Shown: in pieces, positions 119 to 11,926 of the stretch
Layout of the letters: each line of letters starts with the position of its first letter
Position numbering within the stretch: the stretch's first letter is position 1
Assembly (NCBI GenBank): GCA_905221125.1
Contig: CAJNBY010000007.1
Location: 1-64,000, forward strand
Reading direction: 5' to 3'
DNA length: 64,000 bases
DNA from: a bacterium
GTDB lineage: Bacteria > Bacillota > Bacilli > Lactobacillales > Streptococcaceae
Position numbers and translations under genes: made by a program
The notes under the pieces: generated by a model
Told to the model about the DNA's origin: nothing
The model's input: only the letters and a program-made list of their open reading frames with translations
Databases searched by the model: none

Positions 119-1666
119 TTATTTTTCTTTGCTTAAGTGAATGACTTGGTCGTAGTGTTTTAAGTCTTCTTCTGTGTAGTGGTGAATGACTTCTATGACT
201 GTCTGTGGTAGGGACAAGAGTAAGTCACTGATCTTTCTGCTATTTTCCAAGTCAAGATTGGCCTTAATTTCATCTGCTAAGATGAGTTGGCTATCGTGGT
301 AGAGGGCGCGGGAGATTTCAAGGCGTTGTTTCTCGCCACCAGACAGACTATCATTGCTGAGCGTTCGATTTTTCAAATGTTCTAACCCCGTTTTTTTGAG
401 GATGTGAGTTAAAATTTCTTCTTTTTTATCCAGTCCTAGAAGGATATTGTCTTCCAGAGATAGCGTGTCAAAGTAATGGCTATCTTGGAGGATATAGGAA
501 CTAAAGCTTGTGATTTCTTGACGTGACAGGTTTTGACCAGCAAAGCTAATCTGTCCACTTGTCGGTGTCTCTTCTCCATGAATGATATTGAGTAGGGTTG
601 TTTTACCAGAGCCACTTTCCCCGATAATGGCGATTTTTTCTCCTTGCTTAATGTGCATGGAAATCGGAGACAGGAGGCTATTCCCATCTTTTTCTAGGGA
701 GATGGTGTTAAGCTGGATAGGGAAAATATTTTCTATGCTTCTAGGCGAGATGAAGTTAGACTGGCCCAAAAGTTTTTGGTATTTGTTGAGAAGAGTTCTA
801 TTCGCTTTTCGGGTGTTGGTAAAGTAAGCCAACTCTTGGAATTGATAACCGATATTATGGGAAACCAGATAGATGGCCACAAAACTCGCTGCATCTAAAT
901 AATTATAGTAGGTCATAAAGCCACCGATGACGATAGGTGTGACAGAACAAAAGGCATCGATGCTATTGATCAAGAGACTGTTTAAAGTTCGTTGCTTTTC
1001 ATAGTTGATTTCGGCATCTAGACTGGTTTGTAATTGCTTTTGATAGCGAGCAAAAAAGAAATCTTGTCCCTGATAATGGCGAATTTGTTGGCTGCCACCA
1101 ATAAAATTTGTCAAGCTTGATAAGTAGCTCTGGTTAACAGTTGACCGCTTTTCAGAAAGTGAATCCAAGCGCTTTGATCCGATAGCACTGCAGAGTACAG
1201 GAAAGGAGTAGAAGAGGATGAAAATCAAGCCTAAGTAAAAATTGGTCCACAAGGCATAGAGAATGGACACAGTGGTGAAACCAAGAGAAGAAATGATGAT
1301 GACGGTTGGCTCGATATAGCTTTCTTCTAGTTGCTTGACGTCGTTTTCTAGGTCAGACAAAATATCCTTTTCATCAATCTCATAACTGCTTAAAAATCGC
1401 TTGAAAATAGCACTCTTGATTCCATATTTAAAGTCAGTAATCAAACGGGCGTAGTAATAGCGTTTCCCAGCTAAGCCTAGTAATAGAATGAGGTTTCCAA
1501 GGATTCCCAAAATCAAAACTTTCCAAAGAAGGCCTAGTTCTTGATTGGTAAAACTAGCAACAATATTCTGAACAAGGGCTGGCGTGATAATTGCTTCCAG
1601 CCAAGTAATGCCAATAGAAAAGAAGTAAAGTAAGAGGTGGTTCTTAGTAACAAATCTTCTCAGCAT
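119..1666 (-). CDS. ABC exporter half-transporter, membrane domain fused to ATPase
   Basis: 515 residues. The N-terminal ~300 residues contain about five or six hydrophobic segments, as in ABC exporter membrane domains. The ATPase follows: Walker A GESGSGKTT at 349-357, signature LSGGEK at 441-446, and Walker B LILADE at 461-466. A half-transporter works as a dimer, and no second half is adjacent, so a homodimer or a distant partner is inferred. The substrate is unknown; a peptide or small hydrophobic compound is only a guess from the family. It is a single-gene unit with its own downstream hairpin (29-71) and a 274-bp upstream gap. The start ATG at 1666 follows a GGAGG-like site (cctcc on the plus strand, 1677-1681). 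Confidence 0.85.
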   Translation of the reverse strand: MLRRFVTKNHLLLYFFSIGITWLEAIITPALVQNIVASFTNQELGLLWKVLILGILGNLILLLGLAGKRYYYARLITDFKYGIKSAIFKRFLSSYEIDEKDILSDLENDVKQLEESYIEPTVIIISSLGFTTVSILYALWTNFYLGLIFILFYSFPVLCSAIGSKRLDSLSEKRSTVNQSYLSSLTNFIGGSQQIRHYQGQDFFFARYQKQLQTSLDAEINYEKQRTLNSLLINSIDAFCSVTPIVIGGFMTYYNYLDAASFVAIYLVSHNIGYQFQELAYFTNTRKANRTLLNKYQKLLGQSNFISPRSIENIFPIQLNTISLEKDGNSLLSPISMHIKQGEKIAIIGESGSGKTTLLNIIHGEETPTSGQISFAGQNLSRQEITSFSSYILQDSHYFDTLSLEDNILLGLDKKEEILTHILKKTGLEHLKNRTLSNDSLSGGEKQRLEISRALYHDSQLILADEIKANLDLENSRKISDLLLSLPQTVIEVIHHYTEEDLKHYDQVIHLSKEK

Positions 1667-1806
1667 AAAGACTTGACCTCCTTATCGATATACATGTAAT
1701 CAGTTTTAAAGTTATTATACTCCTTTATCTCAAATACTTCATATAAAAATATAAATTTTGTGGATATACAATTAAATGACAATGTCGTAATGTAACAGAT
1801 TAAAAC

Positions 1807-1849
1807 AAAAAGCGAACAAAACAGAATTCATTGTTTCGATTCGCTTTTT
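1807..1849 (-). terminator. Hairpin terminator in the 1667-1940 gap
   Basis: AAAAAGCGAA (1807-1816) pairs with TTCGCTTTTT (1840-1849), with T-runs on both strands. It lies just past the end of the choline-binding protein gene (1941) and should stop its minus-strand transcript before the exporter gene. The rest of 1667-1940 is AT-rich, with no gene seen; it presumably holds the exporter promoter. Confidence 0.75.
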
Positions 1850-1940
1850 GTATTATTATCTAGATTTTTCTTGTAGCTCTGATAACATTTAGTCTGAGCA
1901 GGTACACTAATAACCGATGGAAAAAAATATGTACTTTAGA

Positions 1941-3023
1941 TTATTTCCAAGCGCCACTGGCATCTACATAGTAACCATCAGGTGTGTAGGTATTGTGAAG
2001 CATCTTACCTGATGAAGCAAGGTAATACCAAGAGCCGCTATCTTTCACCCAGCCTGTTGCCATAGAGCCTGAGTTGTTTAGATAATACCAAGATCCACTA
2101 TCTTTGATCCAACCTGTCGCCATAGAACCTGAGTCTTTTAGGTAATACCAAGAGTGATTATCATATAGCCAATCACTAGCAATCATAGCTCCTGATGATT
2201 TAAAGGCATACCAGTTGCCACCCTGATAGAGCCAAGTTTGATTGAACATGACTCCTTTATCATTCATAAAGTACCAAGTTCCCTTATCCTTAACCCAAGC
2301 ATTTTTAACTAATTGCCCTTGTTTTTGATAGTACCACTTTTCACTGTAATCCTTTTTTAGCCAGCTTTCTGCTTTTACAATCGGATAAAGTATTTTGAAG
2401 GCTCCTGCCCCCCTGTAGGAATGACTGATAACTCCTGGTTTTTGAAGTTTCAATTCTTCATAGTCGTCTGCCCAAGCAAAGACTTTTTGACCATTGAGAG
2501 TCTCTGGTAAGGTAGCAGTGTAGGTCTTGGTTTGATAGTCCCATTTTGCATCAAGGTAGGTGTGTTGATCATTTGATTCGTCAATACGGAAGTAACCACT
2601 CTTTCCACCGTCATTATATACATCATCTACTACTTTAGTGGACCAGGTCTTTACTTCATTTCCGCTCTTGGCTTCTACCTTGATATCTCCTCTATAGCCA
2701 TAAGGTACATAGAAATTCAGGTAACGCCCCTCTGTACCGACCATAGACTTGTCCTTTTCTTGACCTAGGAAATTGATAGTCTGATCTTGACCATTGAGAC
2801 TGACTGTCCACTCGATTTTCTCAGTTTTTGGCAAATCCAAGACTTTGATATCTACTTCATGGCCATTGTTAAATCGAAGAATTTTGCCATCTTGATACTT
2901 AACGCCACCCTTAATAACCCACTCTTCTTCAAGATCGAAGGCCTTTCCCGAATGAGGGAAAGCTAGTAAAGCTAAACCTGCTATAGACAAACCGAATAGT
3001 GTGATTTTTTTTGATACTTTCAT
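1941..3023 (-). CDS. Choline-binding surface protein with unrecognised N-terminal domain
   Basis: 360 residues. A signal peptide covers about residues 1-29 (KVSKK, hydrophobic core, cleavage near GKA). Residues ~30-220 form a domain I do not recognise, rich in beta-type sequence (many K/D/Y/W/G, no cysteine). From ~225 to the end run about six 20-residue choline-binding repeats with the GW/WYYL/SGSM pattern, which hold the protein to choline on teichoic acids. The gene starts 12 bp after the end of the caspase-like gene (3036), so the two are probably one transcript. A function cannot be assigned. A physical link to the caspase-like neighbour (as substrate, inhibitor or partner) is speculation from the pairing. 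Confidence 0.85.
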   Translation of the reverse strand: MKVSKKITLFGLSIAGLALLAFPHSGKAFDLEEEWVIKGGVKYQDGKILRFNNGHEVDIKVLDLPKTEKIEWTVSLNGQDQTINFLGQEKDKSMVGTEGRYLNFYVPYGYRGDIKVEAKSGNEVKTWSTKVVDDVYNDGGKSGYFRIDESNDQHTYLDAKWDYQTKTYTATLPETLNGQKVFAWADDYEELKLQKPGVISHSYRGAGAFKILYPIVKAESWLKKDYSEKWYYQKQGQLVKNAWVKDKGTWYFMNDKGVMFNQTWLYQGGNWYAFKSSGAMIASDWLYDNHSWYYLKDSGSMATGWIKDSGSWYYLNNSGSMATGWVKDSGSWYYLASSGKMLHNTYTPDGYYVDASGAWK

Positions 3024-3035
3024 TTTCTTAACTCC

Positions 3036-4237
3036 TTATTTTTGAAATAAAACAAATTGACTGTTTTCTGGATAAACTGATACATGTTGCTCTTCGTGAA
3101 TTTTTGATGCAGCTTCAAGGACTAGAGGATAAGAGTATTGATACAGTTCCTCTAAAGTGATTTTTCCGTCAGTATTGGAAATGATTTTATTTTGAAGTGA
3201 ATCCCAACCTGTACCCATTGCCCAGTATCTGGTGGCAAGACTACCTACTCCGACTGCACTATACGATTTTTCACCTTTCCAAGAGGCACATAGTACGAGG
3301 AACTTAGAATCAAGCATTTCACCATTCTTGCTTGCTAGATCTCCTGTTGAAAATCCTGCCAAAAATGCTTGTTCATCAAATCTTTCTTCAGACTTGGAGA
3401 CGGCCTTTTCATCTGATTTACCTACATCTATAATTGTTCCTGAATAGCAACAATCCAGCATAACCACAAACTTACCTTTGTATTGTTTCAGTAGAGATGT
3501 CAATTCCCAGCCTGAAAATGTCTGACCATCGCTACCAAGATAGATTCTTCCGTCTCTTCCTCCATGACAAGTAAGGTAAAGATAGTTCACATCGCTTTCG
3601 CTAGAAGATTTGAAAAGCTCTTGCATTTTTGCAATAATCTCGGACTTAGTTTTATCTGGGAAACGAACAACTTTACTAAAGTTTTGGTTACTAAAAACCT
3701 TTTCCATAGCATTAACGTCTTCGATAGGTACTTCTATCGTTGATGTTTCACCAAGAACTAAAGCACGGCGATTAATCGTTTGTCTTGCTCCACTACTAGC
3801 AAAGAAATAAGTATCATCTCCAATATTGTGCCAACCTGTCTGCATAGCACCGCTATCAGCTAAATAATATTGTTTTCCTTCGATAGTCTGTAGGCCAGTT
3901 TGCATGACACCGCTAGTATTTAAATAGTACCAACTACCAGAAATCAAACACCAGCCTGTTTTCATAGCACCACTATCATCTAGATAATACCAATTTCCAT
4001 ATTCATTAAACCAACCTGTTTTCATCCAACCTTCACTATCAAAATAGTACAGGTTTCATTAATCTTTTCCCACCCGTTTCTAGTGTAAGAACCGTTAGAA
4101 TGTTTATACCACCAACTGCCATTGGAGTGACTATAAGCCTAGGGAGAGATAGATTCTTGAGCAGAAACTGGTTTATTTACTGCTAGTGTTGTCGCTAGGC
4201 TCGGTAAAGCAACTGATGACAATAAAATTTTTTTCAT
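3036..4237 (-). pseudogene. Broken secreted caspase-like (C14) choline-binding protein gene
   Basis: The full frame would be 401 codons from ATG at 4237. The first 32 codons encode a signal peptide (MKKILLSSVALPSLATTLAV, then a VSA cleavage-like site) and end in an in-frame TAG at 4139-4141. One base is also missing near 4050, where the repeat motif WYYFD loses a G of its TGG codon. Downstream of the lesions, 3036-4025 stays open for 329 codons: four 20-residue choline-binding repeats (1-80), then a caspase-like domain. Its dyad is visible as CHGG (His154) and DCCYSG (Cys193, the D-x-C-x-S-G pattern of family C14). Homology to caspases/metacaspases is clear from these motifs; the substrate is unknown. 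As read, no secreted protein can be made without suppression plus frameshifting. Sequencing error could explain either lesion alone, less easily both. Confidence 0.85.
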
Positions 4238-4244
4238 AATGATA

Positions 4245-4273
4245 TTGTCCTTTCTGTTTTATTTTTGTATAAT
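4245..4273 (+). promoter_or_regulatory. Promoter of the Rgg-type regulator gene
   Basis: TTGTCC (4245-4250), a 17-base spacer and a perfect TATAAT (4268-4273) lie in the 98-bp divergent region between the broken caspase-like gene and the regulator. Any operator for the minus-strand surface-protein genes must overlap this promoter. Confidence 0.65.
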
Positions 4274-4335
4274 CATAATCATATCACAAATAAAAAAACA
4301 GGTTTTATTTTTTGCAGAAATGGAAGAGGAATGCT

Positions 4336-5199
4336 ATGGAAAATTTTGGAGCAGTTTTAAAGGATATCCGTATTTCAAAAAATTTTCGTCTTAAAGATTT
4401 GGCTTGTGATAAGATTAGTGAGTCAACTATTTCTCGTTTCGAAAATGGGATTACAAAATTATCTATTGATCATTTTTATATTTTGTTAAATCGCCTGGGG
4501 ATCTCATTTTCGGAATTTGAAGAATTAGTCCATTGCTATTATTCCAAAAAAGAATGTTTTTTTGAAGAACTAGAGCATGCTGTGAACTCTTCAGATATCG
4601 TTTTGTTACAAGAACTAATAAAGAAAATAGAACTAAAACAAAAGCAGGAAAAAAGTTTATGCAATTGTCACATAAAGTTGATTGCTGAACAACAGATTAA
4701 TCGCCTTGCAACCCTTCCTTACAATGCATCTAAATGTAATGAGCTAATCAAGTATTTGCTTTCTGTAGATAATTGGATGGAGTATGAACTGAAAATTTTC
4801 TATAATTCGGTGTTTTTTATGAACACTAAGACCATAAGCTTATTATATAGAGTGGTAATCAAGAAAACACGACATTTTTTAAAAACAGATATGGGAACAC
4901 ATAGAGTAATTCCTTTATATTTATTTAATTTAGAATTATTATTAAAAAATAATTTGTTAGATAGCGCTCAATTTTTTATAGATGATTTAGAAAATTTACT
5001 GACTAGACAAGGATATTATTTTGAAAAGACTTATTTACTTTTTTTAAAAGGTATTTATCTCATAAAAACGAATCAAGTAGAGTTAGGTAAAAAAGAATGT
5101 TCCAAAGCTATGAAAATATGTAAGGAATATAATGATAGTGTCACAATAGAGAAATTAAATAAGACCTTTAAATCAGATTTAAAAGGATTTGTTTTTTAA
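4336..5199 (+). CDS. Rgg/MutR-family transcriptional regulator
   Basis: 287 residues. An N-terminal XRE-type helix-turn-helix (about residues 5-65, with the segment SESTISRFENG as recognition region) is followed by an all-helical C-terminal domain of the length typical of Rgg/MutR/PlcR regulators. ATG 4336 is chosen because GGAAGAGGA sits 5 bases before it; an upstream TTG at 4312 has no such site. It is divergent from the caspase-like/choline-binding genes, and Rgg proteins often control the neighbouring gene, so it probably regulates that pair. Many Rggs respond to short exported peptides, but I saw no SHP-like peptide gene beside it. The coding sequence is more AT-rich than the housekeeping genes to its right, consistent with accessory DNA. 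Confidence 0.85.
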   Translation: MENFGAVLKDIRISKNFRLKDLACDKISESTISRFENGITKLSIDHFYILLNRLGISFSEFEELVHCYYSKKECFFEELEHAVNSSDIVLLQELIKKIELKQKQEKSLCNCHIKLIAEQQINRLATLPYNASKCNELIKYLLSVDNWMEYELKIFYNSVFFMNTKTISLLYRVVIKKTRHFLKTDMGTHRVIPLYLFNLELLLKNNLLDSAQFFIDDLENLLTRQGYYFEKTYLLFLKGIYLIKTNQVELGKKECSKAMKICKEYNDSVTIEKLNKTFKSDLKGFVF

Positions 5200-5228
5200 A
5201 TAAAGTTAGACAGAAAATGAGATAAAAG

Positions 5229-5268
5229 AAAAAGGATAGCCTCTCTGCGATGAGATGTTATCCTTTTT
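5229..5268. terminator. Bidirectional terminator between convergent genes
   Basis: AAAAAGGATA (5229-5238) pairs with TATCCTTTTT (5259-5268). It serves both the regulator (ends 5199, plus) and the ABC permease (ends 5279, minus). Confidence 0.85.
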
Positions 5269-5278
5269 GATTTTAAAA

Positions 5279-6046
5279 TTATTGCAAATTAACCTTGTTT
5301 TTCAAGATATAGTAGGTTCCGAGATAAAAGATAGCTATGAAAATGAGTTCTTCAAAAATGCCTGTACTTGCTCCCATATAGAAATTATCATTAAATCCTG
5401 CAAGTGAATTGACATAGAAGTTAGTACTGGTATTGAAGAAGACTTCAATAAATCCAATGACGATTTGGATACCAATGTAGGCTGCAACAGCGAGTGCTGT
5501 ACGGTATTCATTGAAAAGCTGTCCAATGGAAATAGCCAGGTAGATGCAGAGGATTCCTGAAATGGTATTTAGTAGGAAGGATATACCTGTAAGAAAGATC
5601 TGAGGGAGATGAGTTTCTACAAATGTAATCACATAAGAAAGAGGAATCCATTCTGAAACCGTTATAGTCACAATAAGAAAAGCACTTAGAGCCAGTACAG
5701 CCGAGCTAAGTATAGACCAGATGAAGGCTCCGACTAATTTAGCAGTGATGATATGGTGTTCAGAAACTGGCAAGGTCAAAGTCAGATAGCCTTGGCGGTC
5801 ATAGACACTTCCTTTGAAGCGTTTGATAATCAAGAAAAGAGTTGAAATCCCCAGTGTAATCATCAAACCACCAAAGACGAGAGCCAGAAAGATAAATAGG
5901 AAAGGTTGGCTATCTTTGAAAGATATATAATTATAGTAGTGGCCTTGCATTCCTATGGGGATAGAAAGGGCTAGAACAGCAGCGTAGAGGGCTAAATACC
6001 ACTTGTTAACATTTTTAAATTCGTAGCGAACTAAATTCCAAAACAT
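5279..6046 (-). CDS. ABC-2 type permease of a GntR-linked transporter
   Basis: 255 residues with about six strongly hydrophobic segments and no ATPase motif, matching ABC-2 family permeases. It is the last gene of a three-gene minus-strand operon (GntR regulator, ATPase, permease), starting 15 bp after the ATPase stop. The substrate is unknown. In related YtrA-type systems of Firmicutes, such transporters respond to cell-envelope antibiotics; that role here is inferred from architecture only. Confidence 0.85.
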   Translation of the reverse strand: MFWNLVRYEFKNVNKWYLALYAAVLALSIPIGMQGHYYNYISFKDSQPFLFIFLALVFGGLMITLGISTLFLIIKRFKGSVYDRQGYLTLTLPVSEHHIITAKLVGAFIWSILSSAVLALSAFLIVTITVSEWIPLSYVITFVETHLPQIFLTGISFLLNTISGILCIYLAISIGQLFNEYRTALAVAAYIGIQIVIGFIEVFFNTSTNFYVNSLAGFNDNFYMGASTGIFEELIFIAIFYLGTYYILKNKVNLQ

Positions 6047-6061
6047 AATAATCTCCTTTGC

Positions 6062-6757
6062 TTAGGCCTTAAATTCCTGACGGAAGAGCTGGTCAATGGA
6101 TTCACCTGACTCGTAGCGAATATCATCTACATTACCTTGACGGACGACTTTTCCGTCTTTGAGAAAGACAATTTCATCTAAGATTGGCTCGATATCAGAA
6201 ATCAAGTGGGTAGAAATCAAAACGGTAGAAGTTGGGGAGTAGTTGTTGATAATGGTATTGAGGATATACTCACGGGCTGCTGGGTCCACTCCACCAATAG
6301 GTTCGTCCAGAACGTAGAGACGAGCATCACGGCTCATAACCAAAATCAGTTGGACCTTTTCCTTGTTCCCTTTTGATAGTTTCTTGAGACGACTATTTTC
6401 ATCAATGCCAAGGTCCGCAAGCAGATGATGGGCACGTTCCAGATTGAAATCTTTATAGAAGGTCTTAAAGTAGGTTAGGGCTTCTTTGACCTTCATTTGT
6501 TCATTGAGATAGGTTGTATCCGGCAAATAAGCTACGATAGCCTTGGTTGCTGGGCTTGGGTCCATGTCGTTGATGAGGACACGTCCTTGGTCTGGTTGTA
6601 AGAGGCCATTGATTAGTTTAATCAAGGTTGTTTTCCCTGAGCCGTTTGGTCCAAGGAGACCAACAATTTTTCCAGCTGGAATGTCAAGAGAAACATTTTC
6701 AAGGGCTGGGGTTGCTCCATAAGATTTGGATACATTTTCAAATGCTAGTAATGACAT
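6062..6757 (-). CDS. ABC transporter ATPase of the GntR-linked operon
   Basis: 231 residues. Walker A GPNGSGKT (36-43), a signature segment LSKGNKEKV, and Walker B LYVLDEP followed by the D-loop GGVD are all present. The LSKGNK variant instead of LSGGQ is common in drug or lipid exporters of this subfamily. It pairs with the permease downstream and lies 4 bp after the GntR gene. Confidence 0.9.
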   Translation of the reverse strand: MSLLAFENVSKSYGATPALENVSLDIPAGKIVGLLGPNGSGKTTLIKLINGLLQPDQGRVLINDMDPSPATKAIVAYLPDTTYLNEQMKVKEALTYFKTFYKDFNLERAHHLLADLGIDENSRLKKLSKGNKEKVQLILVMSRDARLYVLDEPIGGVDPAAREYILNTIINNYSPTSTVLISTHLISDIEPILDEIVFLKDGKVVRQGNVDDIRYESGESIDQLFRQEFKA

Positions 6758-6761
6758 AGGC

Positions 6762-7127
6762 TTAAACTCCTTTAATATAATCGCCGACTACGCCTGGTAG
6801 TTCTTCTTTTTCATAGCCAAAATGGGTCATGGAGGAAACGAAGTGTTCCAATTCTTCTTCCGATAATTGTTTGCGTGATTGGGCGATCAGTTCCTTATCT
6901 TCAGTCACAAATCGTCCAGTTGTTCGCTTGCTGTAGACAAATCCTTCTCGTTCAAGGTCTGACAAGGCTCTTTGGATGGTGTTTGGATTGACACCGGCCT
7001 CGCTAGCCAGCTCTCGCACGGTTGGAAGTTGTTGATTGGGTTCCAGCGTATGGGAAACAATCTGAAGCTTGATTTTCTCCATAATCTGTAAATAGATGGG
7101 TTTTTTGTTGTCAAATGTCCAGGACAT
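6762..7127 (-). CDS. GntR-family (YtrA subfamily) transcriptional regulator
   Basis: 121 residues. A winged helix-turn-helix covers about residues 10-75 (with QLPTVRELASEAGVNPNTIQRA as its core), followed by a short ~45-residue tail. This is the short layout of the YtrA subgroup, which lacks a large ligand domain. It is first in the operon and probably autoregulates it from the strong promoter at 7165-7193. Confidence 0.9.
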   Translation of the reverse strand: MSWTFDNKKPIYLQIMEKIKLQIVSHTLEPNQQLPTVRELASEAGVNPNTIQRALSDLEREGFVYSKRTTGRFVTEDKELIAQSRKQLSEEELEHFVSSMTHFGYEKEELPGVVGDYIKGV

Positions 7128-7164
7128 CTTGGTCTCCTTTCTCTTATCTCTTTGTCTTAATTAA

Positions 7165-7193
7165 ATAATACAACAAAACAAAAAACTTGTCAA
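7165..7193 (-). promoter_or_regulatory. Promoter of the gntR-ABC operon
   Basis: On the minus strand, TTGACA (7193-7188), a 17-base spacer and TATTAT (7170-7165). The -35 lies in the short palindrome CTTGTCAAG (7186-7194), a possible operator half-site. Confidence 0.75.
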
Positions 7194-7211
7194 GCAAAAA
7201 GAAGAATTGTT

Positions 7212-7239
7212 TTGGGAATCGCTTAAAAAATGGTATAAT
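7212..7239 (+). promoter_or_regulatory. Promoter of nrdR-dnaB-dnaI
   Basis: TTGGGA (7212-7217), a 16-base spacer and an extended -10, TGG-TATAAT (7231-7239). Transcription would start near 7246, downstream of the alternative TTG codon at 7207. This supports the NrdR start at 7267. Confidence 0.7.
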
Positions 7240-7266
7240 GAAAAGAAAACGATAAGGAGGGAAAGG

Positions 7267-7740
7267 ATGCGTTGTCCAAAATGTGGGGCTACCAAGTCAA
7301 GTGTTATCGATAGTCGCCAAGCAGAAGAAGGGAACACCATTCGTAGAAGACGTGAGTGCGACGAATGCCAGCACCGTTTTACGACCTACGAACGGGTAGA
7401 AGAAAGAACCTTAGTGGTCGTTAAAAAAGATGGCACACGGGAACAATTCTCCAGAGATAAAATCTTTAATGGAATTATCCGCTCAGCCCAGAAACGTCCT
7501 GTGTCAAGTGATGAAATCAACATGGTAGTCAATCGTATCGAACAGAAACTCCGTGGTCGAAATGAAAACGAAATTCAAAGTGAGGACATTGGTTCACTCG
7601 TCATGGAGGAGTTGGCTGAGTTAGATGAGATTACCTATGTACGTTTTGCCAGTGTCTATCGTAGTTTTAAGGATGTGAGTGAGCTAGAGAGCTTGCTCCA
7701 ACAAATCACTCAGTCCTCTAAAAAGAAAAAGGAAAGATAA
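7267..7740 (+). CDS. nrdR: Transcriptional repressor NrdR
   Basis: 157 residues. An N-terminal zinc ribbon (Cys3, Cys6, Cys31, Cys34) is followed by an ATP-cone domain (about 48-140). NrdR is a nucleotide-sensing repressor of ribonucleotide reductase genes. ATG 7267 follows AAGGAGGGAAAGG closely and starts with MRCPKC as in the family; the longer frame from 7207 would put 20 non-homologous residues in front. dnaB begins on the base after its stop codon. Confidence 0.95.
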
Positions 7741-8910
7741 ATGAAGCCAATTGACCGTTTTTCTTATCTAAAGAATAATCGGGTGTCGCAAGATACCTCA
7801 TCTCTGGTACAGTGCTACCTCCCGATTATCGGTCAGGAGGCACTGAGCCTTTATCTTTATACAATCAGTTTTTGGGACAATGGCAGAAAGGAATACCTCT
7901 TTTCAAGCATTCTCAACCATCTCAACTTTGGGATGGATAGACTGATAAAATCCCTGAAAATCCTATCTGCTTTCAATCTCTTGACCCTCTATCAAAAGGG
8001 TGATGCTTATCAGCTAGCCCTCCATGCTCCTCTCTCGAGTCAAGATTTCTTAGAACATCCTGTTTATCGCAGACTCTTGGAGAAAAAGATTGGCGATGCA
8101 GCTGTGGAGGATTTGAAAGTTGAAAGTGCTGATGGTGAAGAAATCTCTGTCTCACTCAATCAAGTCTTTCCAGATTTGGCAGAGCTGGGAAGTCAAGAAG
8201 ACCTTGGTCTCAAGAAGAAAGTGGCCAATGATTTTGACTTGGACCATTTTCGTCAGCTGATGGCTCGAGATGGGCTTCGTTTTGCGGATGAGCAGTCAGA
8301 TGTCTTGAATCTGTTTGCTATTGCCGAGGAGAAAAAATGGACTTGGTTTGAGACCTATCAATTGGCCAAGTCAACAGCTGTTTCCCAGGTTATTTCAACC
8401 AAACGCATGCGGGAAAAAATTGCTCAAAAACCAGTTTCCTCTGACTTTAATCCTAAGGAAGCAACCATTATTAAAGAAGCCAAAAGTAAGACTGCTCTGC
8501 AGTTCTTGGCAGAAATCAAGCAGACACGCAAGGGAACCATTACCCAAACAGAAAGAGAACTCTTGCAACAGATGGCTGGCTTGGGCTTGCTGGACGAAGT
8601 CATCAATATCATTCTCTTATTGACCTTTAATAAAGTGGATTCGGCAAATATCAATGAGAAATATGCCATGAAGGTAGCAAATGACTATGCCTATCAAAAG
8701 ATACATTCGGCAGAAGAAGCAGTCTTGCGCATTCGTGAACGTGGGCAAAAGAGTCAGGCTCAAAAGGCTAGTAAACCCGGTCCTGCCAAGTCCAATGTAC
8801 CCAAGTGGAGCAATCCAGATTATAAGAATGAAACCAGCGAGGAAACTCGTCTGGAACTAGAGCGTAAGAAACAAGAACTATTAGCTCGATTAGAAAAAGG
8901 AGGAGATTAG
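7741..8910 (+). CDS. dnaB: Replication initiation / membrane attachment protein DnaB (helicase co-loader)
   Basis: 389 residues. This is the Firmicutes DnaB of the DnaD/DnaB family, not the replicative helicase. It acts with DnaD and DnaI to load the helicase at oriC and at restart sites. A DnaB-type N-terminal winged-helix region is followed by a DnaB_2/DDBH domain around residues 200-335 and a charged, lysine-rich tail. It is coupled tightly to nrdR (0 bp) and dnaI (0 bp). Confidence 0.92.
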   Translation: MKPIDRFSYLKNNRVSQDTSSLVQCYLPIIGQEALSLYLYTISFWDNGRKEYLFSSILNHLNFGMDRLIKSLKILSAFNLLTLYQKGDAYQLALHAPLSSQDFLEHPVYRRLLEKKIGDAAVEDLKVESADGEEISVSLNQVFPDLAELGSQEDLGLKKKVANDFDLDHFRQLMARDGLRFADEQSDVLNLFAIAEEKKWTWFETYQLAKSTAVSQVISTKRMREKIAQKPVSSDFNPKEATIIKEAKSKTALQFLAEIKQTRKGTITQTERELLQQMAGLGLLDEVINIILLLTFNKVDSANINEKYAMKVANDYAYQKIHSAEEAVLRIRERGQKSQAQKASKPGPAKSNVPKWSNPDYKNETSEETRLELERKKQELLARLEKGGD

Positions 8911-9807
8911 ATGGAAAGTGTCGGAGACGTACTCAAGCGTCAACCTAGCCGTTTTCATTATCAAGATTTGGTCCAGAAAATCATGAAGGACCCTGATGTT
9001 GCGGCCTTTATCCAGCAAGAAAACCTCAGCCCAGAGGAATTGAATCGCAGTATCTCCAAATTTAATCAGTACATCACCGAGCGCGATAAGTTTCTCCGTG
9101 GAGATACAGATTATATTGCCAAAGGCTACAAGCCGATTTTGGTTATGAATCATGGCTATGCGGATGTTTCTTATGAAGAAACTCCTGAGCTAATCGCAGC
9201 GGAAAAAGAAGCGGCTATTAAAAACCGTCTCAAGTTAATCAATCTGCCAGCCAGTCTCAAGAAAGCTAGTTTGGCTCAAGTTGACTTGGATGATTTGGGA
9301 CGCTTATCAGTTTTTGAAAAGCTACTAGCCTTTGTTGAGCAATATCCAGCTATTCGAAAAGGTCTTTACTTATATGGAGACTTTGGTGTGGGTAAAAGTT
9401 TCATGGTGGCTGCCTTGGCCCATGATTTATCAGAAAAACGTGGTGTTTCATCAACCCTTCTCCACTATCCTAGTTTTGTCATCGATGTCAAAAATGCTAT
9501 CGGTGATGGCAATGTTAAGACCTTGGTGGATGAGCTTAAGCTTTCTGAAGTCCTGATTTTAGATGATATTGGTGCCGAGCAATCAACAGCTTGGGTGCGG
9601 GATGAAATCCTACAAGTCATTCTCCAATATCGGATGCAGGAAAATTTACCGACCTTTTTCACTTCCAACTTCAACTTTGAAGAATTGGAACTGCATTTCG
9701 CTAAAGGGAAACATGGAAATGACGAAACCTGGGAAGCCAGACGGGTCATGGAACGCATCCGTTATTTGGCCGAGGAGACTCGTTTAGAAGGAGTAAACCG
9801 CCGATGA
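8911..9807 (+). CDS. dnaI: Primosomal helicase loader DnaI
   Basis: 298 residues. The N-terminal helicase-binding domain (~1-130) is followed by an AAA+ ATPase with Walker A GDFGVGKS and Walker B LILDDIG. DnaI opens and loads the replicative helicase ring. Its stop overlaps the start of the nitroreductase gene by 4 bases (ATGA). Confidence 0.95.
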   Translation: MESVGDVLKRQPSRFHYQDLVQKIMKDPDVAAFIQQENLSPEELNRSISKFNQYITERDKFLRGDTDYIAKGYKPILVMNHGYADVSYEETPELIAAEKEAAIKNRLKLINLPASLKKASLAQVDLDDLGRLSVFEKLLAFVEQYPAIRKGLYLYGDFGVGKSFMVAALAHDLSEKRGVSSTLLHYPSFVIDVKNAIGDGNVKTLVDELKLSEVLILDDIGAEQSTAWVRDEILQVILQYRMQENLPTFFTSNFNFEELELHFAKGKHGNDETWEARRVMERIRYLAEETRLEGVNRR

Positions 9808-10517
9808 CAGAAACGATTGAACTGATGAAAGCTCATAAGTCTGTTCGAAGATTTAAGGAACAGGCCCTTCCTCAGGAAGACTTGACTGAAATCTTGACAG
9901 CAGCCCAAATGGCCTCGTCTTGGAAGAATTTCCAATCCTACTCTGTGATTGTAGTACGAAGTAAAGAGAAGAAAGATGCTTTGTATGAATTGGTGCCTCA
10001 AGAAGCCATTCGCCAATCAGCTGTTTTCCTTCTCTTTGTCGGAGATTTGAACCGAGCGGAAAAGGGAGCCCGACTTCATACTGACTCATTCCAACCTCAA
10101 GGTGTGGAAGGCCTCTTGATTAGTTCAGTCGATGCAGCTCTTGCTGGTCAAAATGCCCTGCTGGCGGCTGAAAGTTTGGGCTATGGTGGTGTTATCATTG
10201 GCCTGGTTCGTTACAAGTCAGAAGAAGTGGCAGAACTCTTTAACCTGCCTGACTACACTTATCCAGTTTTTGGGATGGCACTAGGTCTTCCAAATGAAGA
10301 ACATGAAGTCAAACCTCGCTTGCCATTGAATCAAGTGGTTTTTGAGGAAGAATATCAGGAACAGACAGTTGATGTGATTGAGGCTTACGACCGTGTACAG
10401 GCTGACTATGCTGGAGCGCGTGCGACCACAAGCTGGAGTCAGCGTCTAGCAGAACAGTTTGGTCAAGCAGAACCAAGCTCAACTAGAAAAAATCTTGAAC
10501 AGAAGAAGTTATTGTAG
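9804..10517 (+). CDS. Nitroreductase-family NAD(P)H-dependent FMN oxidoreductase
   Basis: 237 residues. The N-terminal SVRRFKEQ motif and the AAESLGYGGVIIG segment are typical of NfrA/Frp-type nitroreductases, which bind FMN as dimers. The physiological substrate is unknown. It overlaps dnaI by 4 bp and lies just before der, so it is probably translated from the replication operon. Confidence 0.9.
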   Translation: MTETIELMKAHKSVRRFKEQALPQEDLTEILTAAQMASSWKNFQSYSVIVVRSKEKKDALYELVPQEAIRQSAVFLLFVGDLNRAEKGARLHTDSFQPQGVEGLLISSVDAALAGQNALLAAESLGYGGVIIGLVRYKSEEVAELFNLPDYTYPVFGMALGLPNEEHEVKPRLPLNQVVFEEEYQEQTVDVIEAYDRVQADYAGARATTSWSQRLAEQFGQAEPSSTRKNLEQKKLL

Positions 10518-10530
10518 AAAGTGAGAAATT

Positions 10531-11841
10531 ATGGCCCTACCAACTATTGCCATTGTAGGACGTCCCAATGTTGGGAAATCAACCCTATTTAATCGGATCG
10601 CTGGTGAGCGAATCTCCATTGTAGAAGATGTCGAAGGAGTGACACGTGACCGTATCTATGCGACGGGTGAGTGGCTCAATCGCTCTTTTAGCATGATTGA
10701 TACAGGAGGAATCGATGATGTCGATGCTCCTTTCATGGAACAAATCAAGCACCAGGCAGAAATTGCTATGGAAGAAGCTGATGTTATCGTTTTTGTCGTG
10801 TCTGGTAAGGAAGGGATTACCGATGCAGACGAATACGTAGCCCGTAAGCTTTATAAGACCCATAAACCAGTTATCCTCGCAGTTAACAAGGTGGACAACC
10901 CTGAGATGCGAAATGATATCTATGATTTTTATGCCCTCGGTTTGGGTGAACCACTGCCTATCTCATCTGTCCACGGTATCGGTACAGGGGATGTGCTAGA
11001 TGCCATCGTAGAAAATCTTCCAAATGAATATGAAGAAGAAAATCCAGATGTCATTAAGTTTAGCTTGATTGGTCGTCCAAACGTTGGAAAATCAAGCTTG
11101 ATCAATGCTATCTTGGGAGAAGACCGTGTCATTGCTAGTCCTGTTGCTGGAACTACGCGTGACGCCATTGATACCCACTTTACAGATACAGATGGTCAAG
11201 AGTTTACCATGATTGATACAGCTGGTATGCGTAAGTCTGGTAAGGTTTATGAAAATACCGAGAAATACTCTGTCATGCGTGCCATGCGTGCTATTGACCG
11301 CTCGGATGTGGTCTTGATGGTCATCAATGCGGAAGAAGGTATCCGTGAATACGACAAGCGTATCGCAGGATTTGCCCATGAAGCTGGTAAAGGGATGATT
11401 ATCGTGGTCAACAAGTGGGATACGCTTGAAAAAGACAACCACACCATGAAAAACTGGGAAGAAGATATCCGTGAGCAGTTCCAATACCTGCCTTACGCAC
11501 CGATTATCTTTGTATCAGCTTTGACCAAGCAACGTCTTCACAAACTTCCTGAGATGATCAAACAAATCAGCGAAAGTCAAAACACGCGTATTCCATCAGC
11601 TGTCTTGAACGATGTCATCATGGATGCCATTGCCATCAACCCAACACCGACAGACAAAGGAAAACGTCTCAAGATTTTCTACGCGACCCAAGTGGCAACC
11701 AAACCACCAACCTTTGTTATCTTTGTCAACGAAGAAGAACTCATGCACTTTTCTTACCTGCGTTTCTTGGAAAATCAAATCCGCAAGGCCTTTGTCTTTG
11801 AAGGAACACCAATCCATCTAATCGCAAGAAAACGTAAATAA
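10531..11841 (+). CDS. der: Ribosome-assembly GTPase Der (EngA)
   Basis: 436 residues. Two tandem GTPase domains, each with a P-loop (GRPNVGKST near residue 9; GRPNVGKSS near 182) and G3/G4 motifs (DTGG and NKVD; DTAG and NKWD), are followed by a KH-like C-terminal domain. Der helps mature the 50S subunit and is essential. Its codon use is like that of highly expressed genes. Confidence 0.97.
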
Positions 11842-11849
11842 AAAAGTAG

Positions 11850-11878
11850 AATCTGGAATGACATTTCCAGATTTTTTT
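11850..11878 (+). terminator. Terminator after der
   Basis: AATCTGGAA (11850-11858) pairs with TTCCAGATT (11865-11873) and is followed by a T-run. It closes the nrdR-der unit. Confidence 0.85.
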
Positions 11879-11926
11879 GATAGAATGAAGGTAAAGAAAA
11901 CGCTATCAAGTAGAGGGAGGCTGGTG

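Follow-up and report, generated by a model that had tools for sequence, protein, structure and literature searches.

A decayed lytFN1-type gene for a caspase-like choline-binding protein beside a divergent rgg regulator in a Mitis-group streptococcus

The stretch analysed here, hereafter the window, comprises positions 1 to 64,000 of contig CAJNBY010000007.1 (assembly GCA_905221125.1, family Streptococcaceae), and its region 3036..4237, read on the minus strand, carries the remains of a gene for a choline-binding protein with a caspase-like domain. An open reading frame of 329 amino acids (aa; 3036..4025, minus strand), an ortholog of lytFN1 with its 5' part cut off, joins choline-binding repeats to a C14 caspase-like domain. 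The repeats remaining in frame span residues 3-81 (3783..4019, minus strand; Pfam PF01473/PF19127; blocks of the structural model with a predicted local distance difference test score, pLDDT, of 74-95), and the caspase-like domain spans residues 84-329 (3036..3776, minus strand), with Pfam PF00656 covering residues 86-265. Pfam recovered the repeats at 6.5e-21 and the C14 caspase at 2.3e-13 (50.8 bits, cut-off 21.4), and the co-occurrence of both in one frame is far beyond chance. The histidine and cysteine to which the sequence-only reading had pointed, in CHGG and DCCYSG, are present as His154 (codon 3564..3566, within TCHGG) and Cys193 (codon 3447..3449, within DCCYSG), both on the minus strand, and represent the predicted catalytic dyad.

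The same reading had placed a signal peptide, the repeats and the C14 domain in a single frame. This is correct for the repeats and the C14 domain, which share the 3036-4025 frame, but not for the signal peptide. When 3036-4237 is read in three frames, the signal peptide begins at 4237, runs for 32 residues and ends at a TAG (4139-4141), and this piece (4139..4237, minus strand) lies in a frame unlike that of the caspase open reading frame. The first repeats also sit in a different frame, with only the part from about 4025 down open with the caspase domain, and, given this stop and frame change, we rejected the view of the window gene as a single secreted protein. Since a TAG triplet occurs at the aligned position in three other loci (the first copy of L006, L008, and L010), a sequencing slip is an unlikely origin for the stop; the frame change is known from one assembly, where an error is conceivable in principle. 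The window copy has also lost 5 residues of an EF-hand-like loop kept by relatives, leaving a remnant at residues 284-294 (3144..3176, minus strand) where relatives read DTNTNGKITLEE or a near variant. The window gene is thus a decayed allele of the lytFN1 family, i.e. a broken member of an already known gene family.

Although the sequence-only reading knew of no described pneumococcal protein with this layout, two have been described in the portions of the literature available to us, to which all statements on published work below refer except where a finding of our own is given. LytFN1 of Streptococcus pneumoniae 110.58 and MNZ41 has the same caspase and choline-binding surface layout (PMC6748166, PMC12187840), and a second PspA-domain protein of serotype 6C CC395 pneumococci likewise combines glucan/choline-type repeats with a peptidase/caspase domain, a likeness drawn from its description only (PMC3665553). 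In strain 110.58, a peptide ligand induced lytFN1 (SpnNT_01010, caspase) and its neighbour lytFN2 ("amidase") more than any other gene (Nasher et al. 2019, PMC6748166). The four published lytFN1 primers (PMC6748166, PMC12187840) align with 0, 1, 2, and 0 mismatches in locus L020 and with 5, 2, 1, and 4 in the window, where the best of 20 shuffled versions of each gave 4, 7, 5, and 5; three of the four real primers do better than this, and the remaining one does not, yet falls inside the right gene. The lytFN2 primers and probe fall inside the next gene in L020 (2, 1, and 0 mismatches) and L009 (2, 3, and 0), and fit neither the window nor L001-L008, so the partner gene there is another variant. 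Published primer sites in adjacent genes are therefore found in L020 and L009, with the window matching the lytFN1 primers only, and partly. By this comparison the window gene is a lytFN1 ortholog, differing from LytFN1 in being broken and in belonging to the DCCYSG class, whereas the best primer matches, L020 and L009, are of the DCCHAG class.

Membership in peptidase family C14 is indicated by the Pfam score, by the position of the dyad, and by the fold. In alignments to metacaspase structures, His154 and Cys193 fall on the dyad residues. There were 4705 matches in a protein search and 1116 in a search with the caspase part; the best 120 listed from each amount to 174 distinct proteins, which as closest matches are of limited diversity. 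Both residues are kept in all 174 (TCHGG with DCCYSG in 173/174, TCHGG with DCCYAG in 1/174) and in 12/12 members of a more diverse aligned set that includes two cytoplasmic-type caspase-like proteins at 20-21% identity, so that the conservation check named by the sequence-only reading was passed. That reading had also staked itself beforehand on the fold, and the predicted structure of the window frame does match the caspase fold, with a weak C-terminal half, while its repeats match those of Pce, CbpF, and CbpJ; a phmmer search of the whole frame against the PDB gave mostly repeat matches, including clostridial toxins. The position two residues ahead of the Cys is acidic (D-x-C), a feature of solved metacaspases that fits the metacaspase/orthocaspase type. 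Animal caspases carry QAC.G at the catalytic Cys; the motif here is DCCYSG, DCCYAG or DCCHAG, without the animal-type QAC. Based on dyad, fold, and selection, the intact relatives are predicted to be proteolytic.

Intact Mitis-group versions with the same repeats, for which the sequence-only reading had suggested a search, do exist. Among the best 120 of the 4705 protein matches, 97 are 412 or 414 aa long, and the few named entries read caspase family protein or peptidase C14, once pneumococcal surface protein A, and belong to S. mitis, S. pseudopneumoniae, S. pneumoniae or Streptococcus sp. The caspase-part search, directed at distant caspases, yielded near relatives only among the matches listed. 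Across 284 genomes of the genus, 20 match the caspase part: 14 with the lytFN1-type family and 6 with a 326-aa type only (G034, G079, G135, G145, G149, G215). A single open frame with signal peptide (judged by eye), repeats, and caspase domain is found in 5/14 genomes (L002, L003, L005, L006, L020), an open gene with an altered start in one (L001), and a gene broken at one of several different places in 8/14 (G123, G140, G159, G160, G167, G173, G228, G269); the L011 copy, on a contig outside the 14 genomes, is broken too. The proposal of a wall-bound, outward-facing caspase-like protease is partly supported: fold, dyad, and intact relatives fit it for the family, but in the window itself the gene is broken.

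The caspase gene is part of a conserved module. A 98-bp divergent promoter region (4238..4335), alignable in 14 sequences and containing A/T-rich inverted repeats, separates the caspase operon from rgg (4336..5199, plus strand), whose product belongs to the Rgg family (Pfam HTH_3 1.7e-7, Rgg_C 1.2e-25). Downstream of the caspase gene lies the lytFN2 ortholog (1941..3023, minus strand), a gene for a choline-binding protein that has repeats at its C-terminus and, ahead of them, an N-terminal part (about 200 aa) with an all-beta model. The order of divergent rgg, caspase gene, and partner gene holds in 13/13 loci compared by tblastn (L001-L011, L016, L020). At E<=1e-60, a cut-off of our choosing, Rgg is found in 14/284 genomes, exactly the 14 with the caspase family; because the genes are linked, this co-occurrence reflects one shared history and not independent gains. 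Since Rgg is whole in 13/14 of these genomes and the N-terminal part of the partner (present in 54/284 genomes, including all 14) is open in 14/14, while the caspase gene is broken in 8/14, the caspase gene has been lost selectively. In L001, the one genome of the 14 with an altered caspase start, rgg is split (4593-5461) and the repeats of the partner run into an assembly gap. By eye, no conserved small open reading frame that could serve as a peptide gene was seen in the promoter region of the 14 sequences, with no search made elsewhere; as a candidate for a short hydrophobic peptide (SHP)-like product, a 7-codon frame of the window was discarded, not being kept in the other loci by eye. Promoter and terminator scans returned matches no more numerous than in shuffled sequences.

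Comparison of 11 loci revealed two classes of the caspase domain, distinguished by a segment (3090..3429, minus strand; DCCYSG class here, DCCHAG elsewhere) whose flanks are conserved across classes. Upstream, up to the Cys motif, mean synonymous divergence (dS) is 0.37 and 0.51 within classes and 0.48 between, with ratios of nonsynonymous to synonymous divergence (dN/dS) of 0.15 and 0.10 within and 0.12 between; past the motif, dS is 0.22 and 0.31 within classes versus 1.41 between, with dN/dS of 0.41 and 0.22 within and 0.35 between, all from pairs that are not independent, with 5/11 loci, window included, contributing broken genes. At the DNA level, the window is 96.6% alike to L006 from 3430 upward and 90.7% over its last 54 bases (3036-3089); between 3089 and 3430, nothing matches the compared L006 copy at E<=1e-5. 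The same two blocks are seen for L007 (95.5 and 88.9%), L009 (86.1 and 90.7%), and, over a shorter stretch, L008 (88.3 and 90.7%), and these sharp borders point to an exchanged segment of about 340 bp that starts 17 bp past the catalytic Cys codon. Tandem pairs occur in L003, where the DCCYSG copy is open and the DCCHAG copy broken, and in L006, where the DCCHAG copy is open and its broken neighbour bears the C-terminal motif of the other class; this pairing of open and broken classes amounts to two cases and no rule. One could imagine the Rgg, caspase, and choline-binding protein module as a surface protease system of exchangeable specificity, with broken tandem copies as a silent store and breakage as an on/off or class-switch strategy of the population instead of simple decay, a speculation to which we give little credence.

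The residues around the catalytic Cys also suggest a substrate preference. Caspases owe their Asp specificity to a basic pocket, while all other characterised C14 members prefer Arg or Lys via an acidic pocket (PMC5756287). Because the Asp two residues ahead of the catalytic Cys is placed as in metacaspases, intact lytFN1 members are predicted to cleave after Arg or Lys and not after Asp. An EF-hand-like pattern is further found in the C-terminal half, always 96 residues past DCC (DTNTNGKITLEE in 165/174 and a near variant in 9/174 proteins among the matches listed); the other class (L006, L007, L008) reads DQNYNNRITLNE at this site, and the window frame gives no match to the pattern. Given that metacaspases need calcium (PMC5756287), this loop suggests, with caution, a calcium need in intact members.

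Published work assigns lytFN1 a colonisation phenotype, and discusses it as a wall-degrading or an apoptosis-inducing factor. A lytFN1 mutant gave 76.67% survival of Galleria larvae versus 33.33%, was recovered in lower numbers from the mouse nasopharynx, with lung and ear no different, and survived less with phagocytes, while without aliC/aliD the lytFN1 transcript was undetectable (PMC12187840). Our analysis points elsewhere, to a predicted outward-facing protease that would cleave after basic residues. Intact members would probably be exported by their Sec signal peptide and probably held by the N-terminal repeats on choline-decorated teichoic acids, as the layout of the intact relatives implies, leaving an outward-facing putative C14 cysteine protease of metacaspase/orthocaspase type that would stay inactive at the low calcium level of the cytoplasm and become active once outside. 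Rgg regulators respond to peptides imported by oligopeptide permeases (PMC7595303), RopB drives SpeB, and lytFN1 depends on the peptide-binding AliC/AliD; for these reasons AliC/AliD may feed peptides to the Ami permease, from which they would reach the divergent Rgg, the likely switch that would turn on the caspase gene and the partner choline-binding protein. In the nasopharynx, probable targets would be proteins or peptides located at the cell surface and rich in Arg/Lys. We consider this combination (exported, wall-anchored C14 protease, Arg/Lys cleavage, calcium need, Rgg switch, surface targets) the best explanation as a whole, with a probability of roughly 0.55. The gene family itself is already known; new here are several testable points about it, in that the attached peptide-sensing regulator and the swappable protease segment hint at how lytFN1 may work, and the neighbouring Rgg might account for the dependence of lytFN1 transcription on oligopeptide-binding proteins. 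If true, lytFN1 would be a case of a caspase-fold enzyme serving as an exported surface protease.

Several observations weigh against this explanation. PF01650 (C13, another clan CD family) also scores just above its cut-off in the caspase frame (24.8 vs 22.8), and no NCBIfam model passes there, the caspase model of EACC1-associated type reaching 33.4 against a cut-off of 140. Confidence in the modelled caspase part is low (pLDDT 63.9 overall, with blocks past residue 190 at 31-64), and some top-ranked VIA rows of the fold comparison match choline-binding repeats instead of the caspase part. With 8/14 copies broken, a benefit of the caspase gene is not general. For the published lytFN1 probe there is no fitting site in the window (4 mismatches, elsewhere) or in L020 (6), and an Rgg beside lytFN1 in strain 110.58 is presumed from L009 and L020. 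An aliC/aliD double mutant without lytFN1 transcript kept its survival with phagocytes, unlike the lytFN1 mutant (PMC12187840), and as orthocaspases are said to be without p10 and calcium-independent (PMC5756287), the calcium claim may not hold. In the portions available, we found no mention of Rgg in the lytFN1 papers and no paper tying Rgg, AliC/AliD, and lytFN1 together, one having AliB-like with Rgg, tabulated, without the caspase; nor did we find a paper on choline-binding caspase proteins of S. mitis and S. pseudopneumoniae.

The breakage in 8/14 genomes, with lesions at several places, together with the loss of part of the EF-like loop in the window, would also be expected of a surface protein with a relic protease site, acting as anchor and antigen only and drifting to loss. 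We find this unlikely, as the dyad is intact in the open copies examined, the catalytic half has a dN/dS of 0.10-0.15, and Rgg has been kept in step with the caspase gene. Another view, that of Nasher et al. 2019, takes LytFN1 and LytFN2 as a death pair in which caspase and amidase degrade the cell's own wall. Both genes are indeed induced by a peptide under which part of the cells die; however, the authors made no knockout, and expression of the pair differed between the wild type and the mutant in the absence of peptide as well (PMC6748166). Pfam moreover gives only choline-binding repeats and no amidase domain in the lytFN2 orthologues of the window, L020, and L009, so that the amidase label of LytFN2 is unsupported by domains. 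The partner model is all-beta at low confidence (pLDDT 64.8, predicted template modelling score 0.45), its top Foldseek matches for the N-terminal part are choline-binding or related repeat proteins, and this part has no solved relative by sequence at E<=1. As a C14 domain is a protease and not a peptidoglycan hydrolase, a death pair seems rather improbable. The weaker performance of the lytFN1 mutant in Galleria, colonisation, and phagocyte survival has instead been taken to suggest a host-directed caspase mimic that drives neutrophil apoptosis by caspase-type cleavage (PMC12187840). The repeats predict wall anchoring, though, and no part that could mediate entry was seen. The D-C-C-Y/H-S/A-G motif furthermore has the acidic residue of Arg/Lys-specific relatives and not the animal QAC.G, making such mimicry a poor candidate. 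Finally, that an internal ATG at 4025 of the window yields a cytoplasmic caspase without signal peptide, acting inside the cell, is highly improbable: the frame is open from there, a GAAGG stretch lies just upstream, and 3/174 proteins among the matches listed begin at the same Met, but the same bases are coding in relatives and the EF-like loop is damaged in the window.

The exported, wall-anchored protease favoured here has partial counterparts in several known systems. Metacaspases and orthocaspases (GSU0716, metacaspase-1, metacaspase-4) share the C14 fold, an SGHG-like His motif, and the D-x-C-x-S-G Cys motif, but have no choline-binding anchor, whereas intact lytFN1 relatives have a signal peptide and a wall anchor; in a 2012 survey of 671 prokaryotic sequences, 529 were without localisation information and 30 were classed as extracellular (PMC3501461). 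In S. pyogenes, RopB is an Rgg encoded beside, and driving, the secreted cysteine protease SpeB, much like the rgg-caspase pair (PMC13361665). Unlike there, no peptide gene was found at the window locus, in the promoter region by eye. SpeB belongs to protease family C10, unlike C14, and is not known to be choline-anchored. The pneumococcal serine protease CbpG does have the layout of a protease on choline-binding repeats, with a catalytic domain unrelated to C14. The cytoplasmic-type streptococcal caspase-like protein of 326 aa, seen in 6/284 Streptococcus genomes (L026-L031), has a C14 domain in which the His and Cys are conserved (L026 and L031 at 20-21% identity), no choline-binding repeats (L026), and no signal peptide by eye. 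It reaches the PADLOC caspase profile at 1.1e-23 (L026) versus 3.7e-4 for the window protein, and a defence caspase was set aside for the latter on this score, the neighbours not having been screened for defence genes.

Flanking genes, named here from our reading of their translations, place most copies of the module at one site. GntR/ABC/nrdR genes adjoin 9/11 named loci (all except L005 and L009), and L039 (G122) sits at the usual site. The 7.3-kb contig of L005 has GNAT and ABC genes next to the module, and the L009 module (S. pseudopneumoniae 1172_SPSE) lies beside rplS with genes for integrase, SIR2-like, and TIR-like proteins (8420-11482), possibly a mobile or defence region, seen in this one locus; in both, DNA similarity to the window stops 2 bp past the rgg stop codon. 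The flank at 5279-9000 is 93-95% identical to 8/11 named loci and 80% to L004 (S. oralis), with no match in L005 and L009, and since this identity is mostly to S. mitis or S. pneumoniae loci, the window derives from the Mitis group. On the other side, a streptosactin exporter resembling GggC is encoded at window 119-1666 (881 bits against an NCBIfam equivalog cut-off of 750). A streptosactin link was left out of the module, as no radical-SAM enzyme is found beside the L002 gggC among open reading frames of at least 70 codons and both L008 and L010 carry a truncated gggC; the search for a small precursor gene was by eye and covered window 1600-1960. In L001, about 3.4 kb of extra DNA (8440-11890) lies between the partner gene and gggC. 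Genes resembling lrgA/lrgB, holin-like by translation, adjoin the module site, beyond gggC where present, in L002 (9803-10899), L007 (9905-10983), L008 (8510-9588), and L039 (4789-5884).
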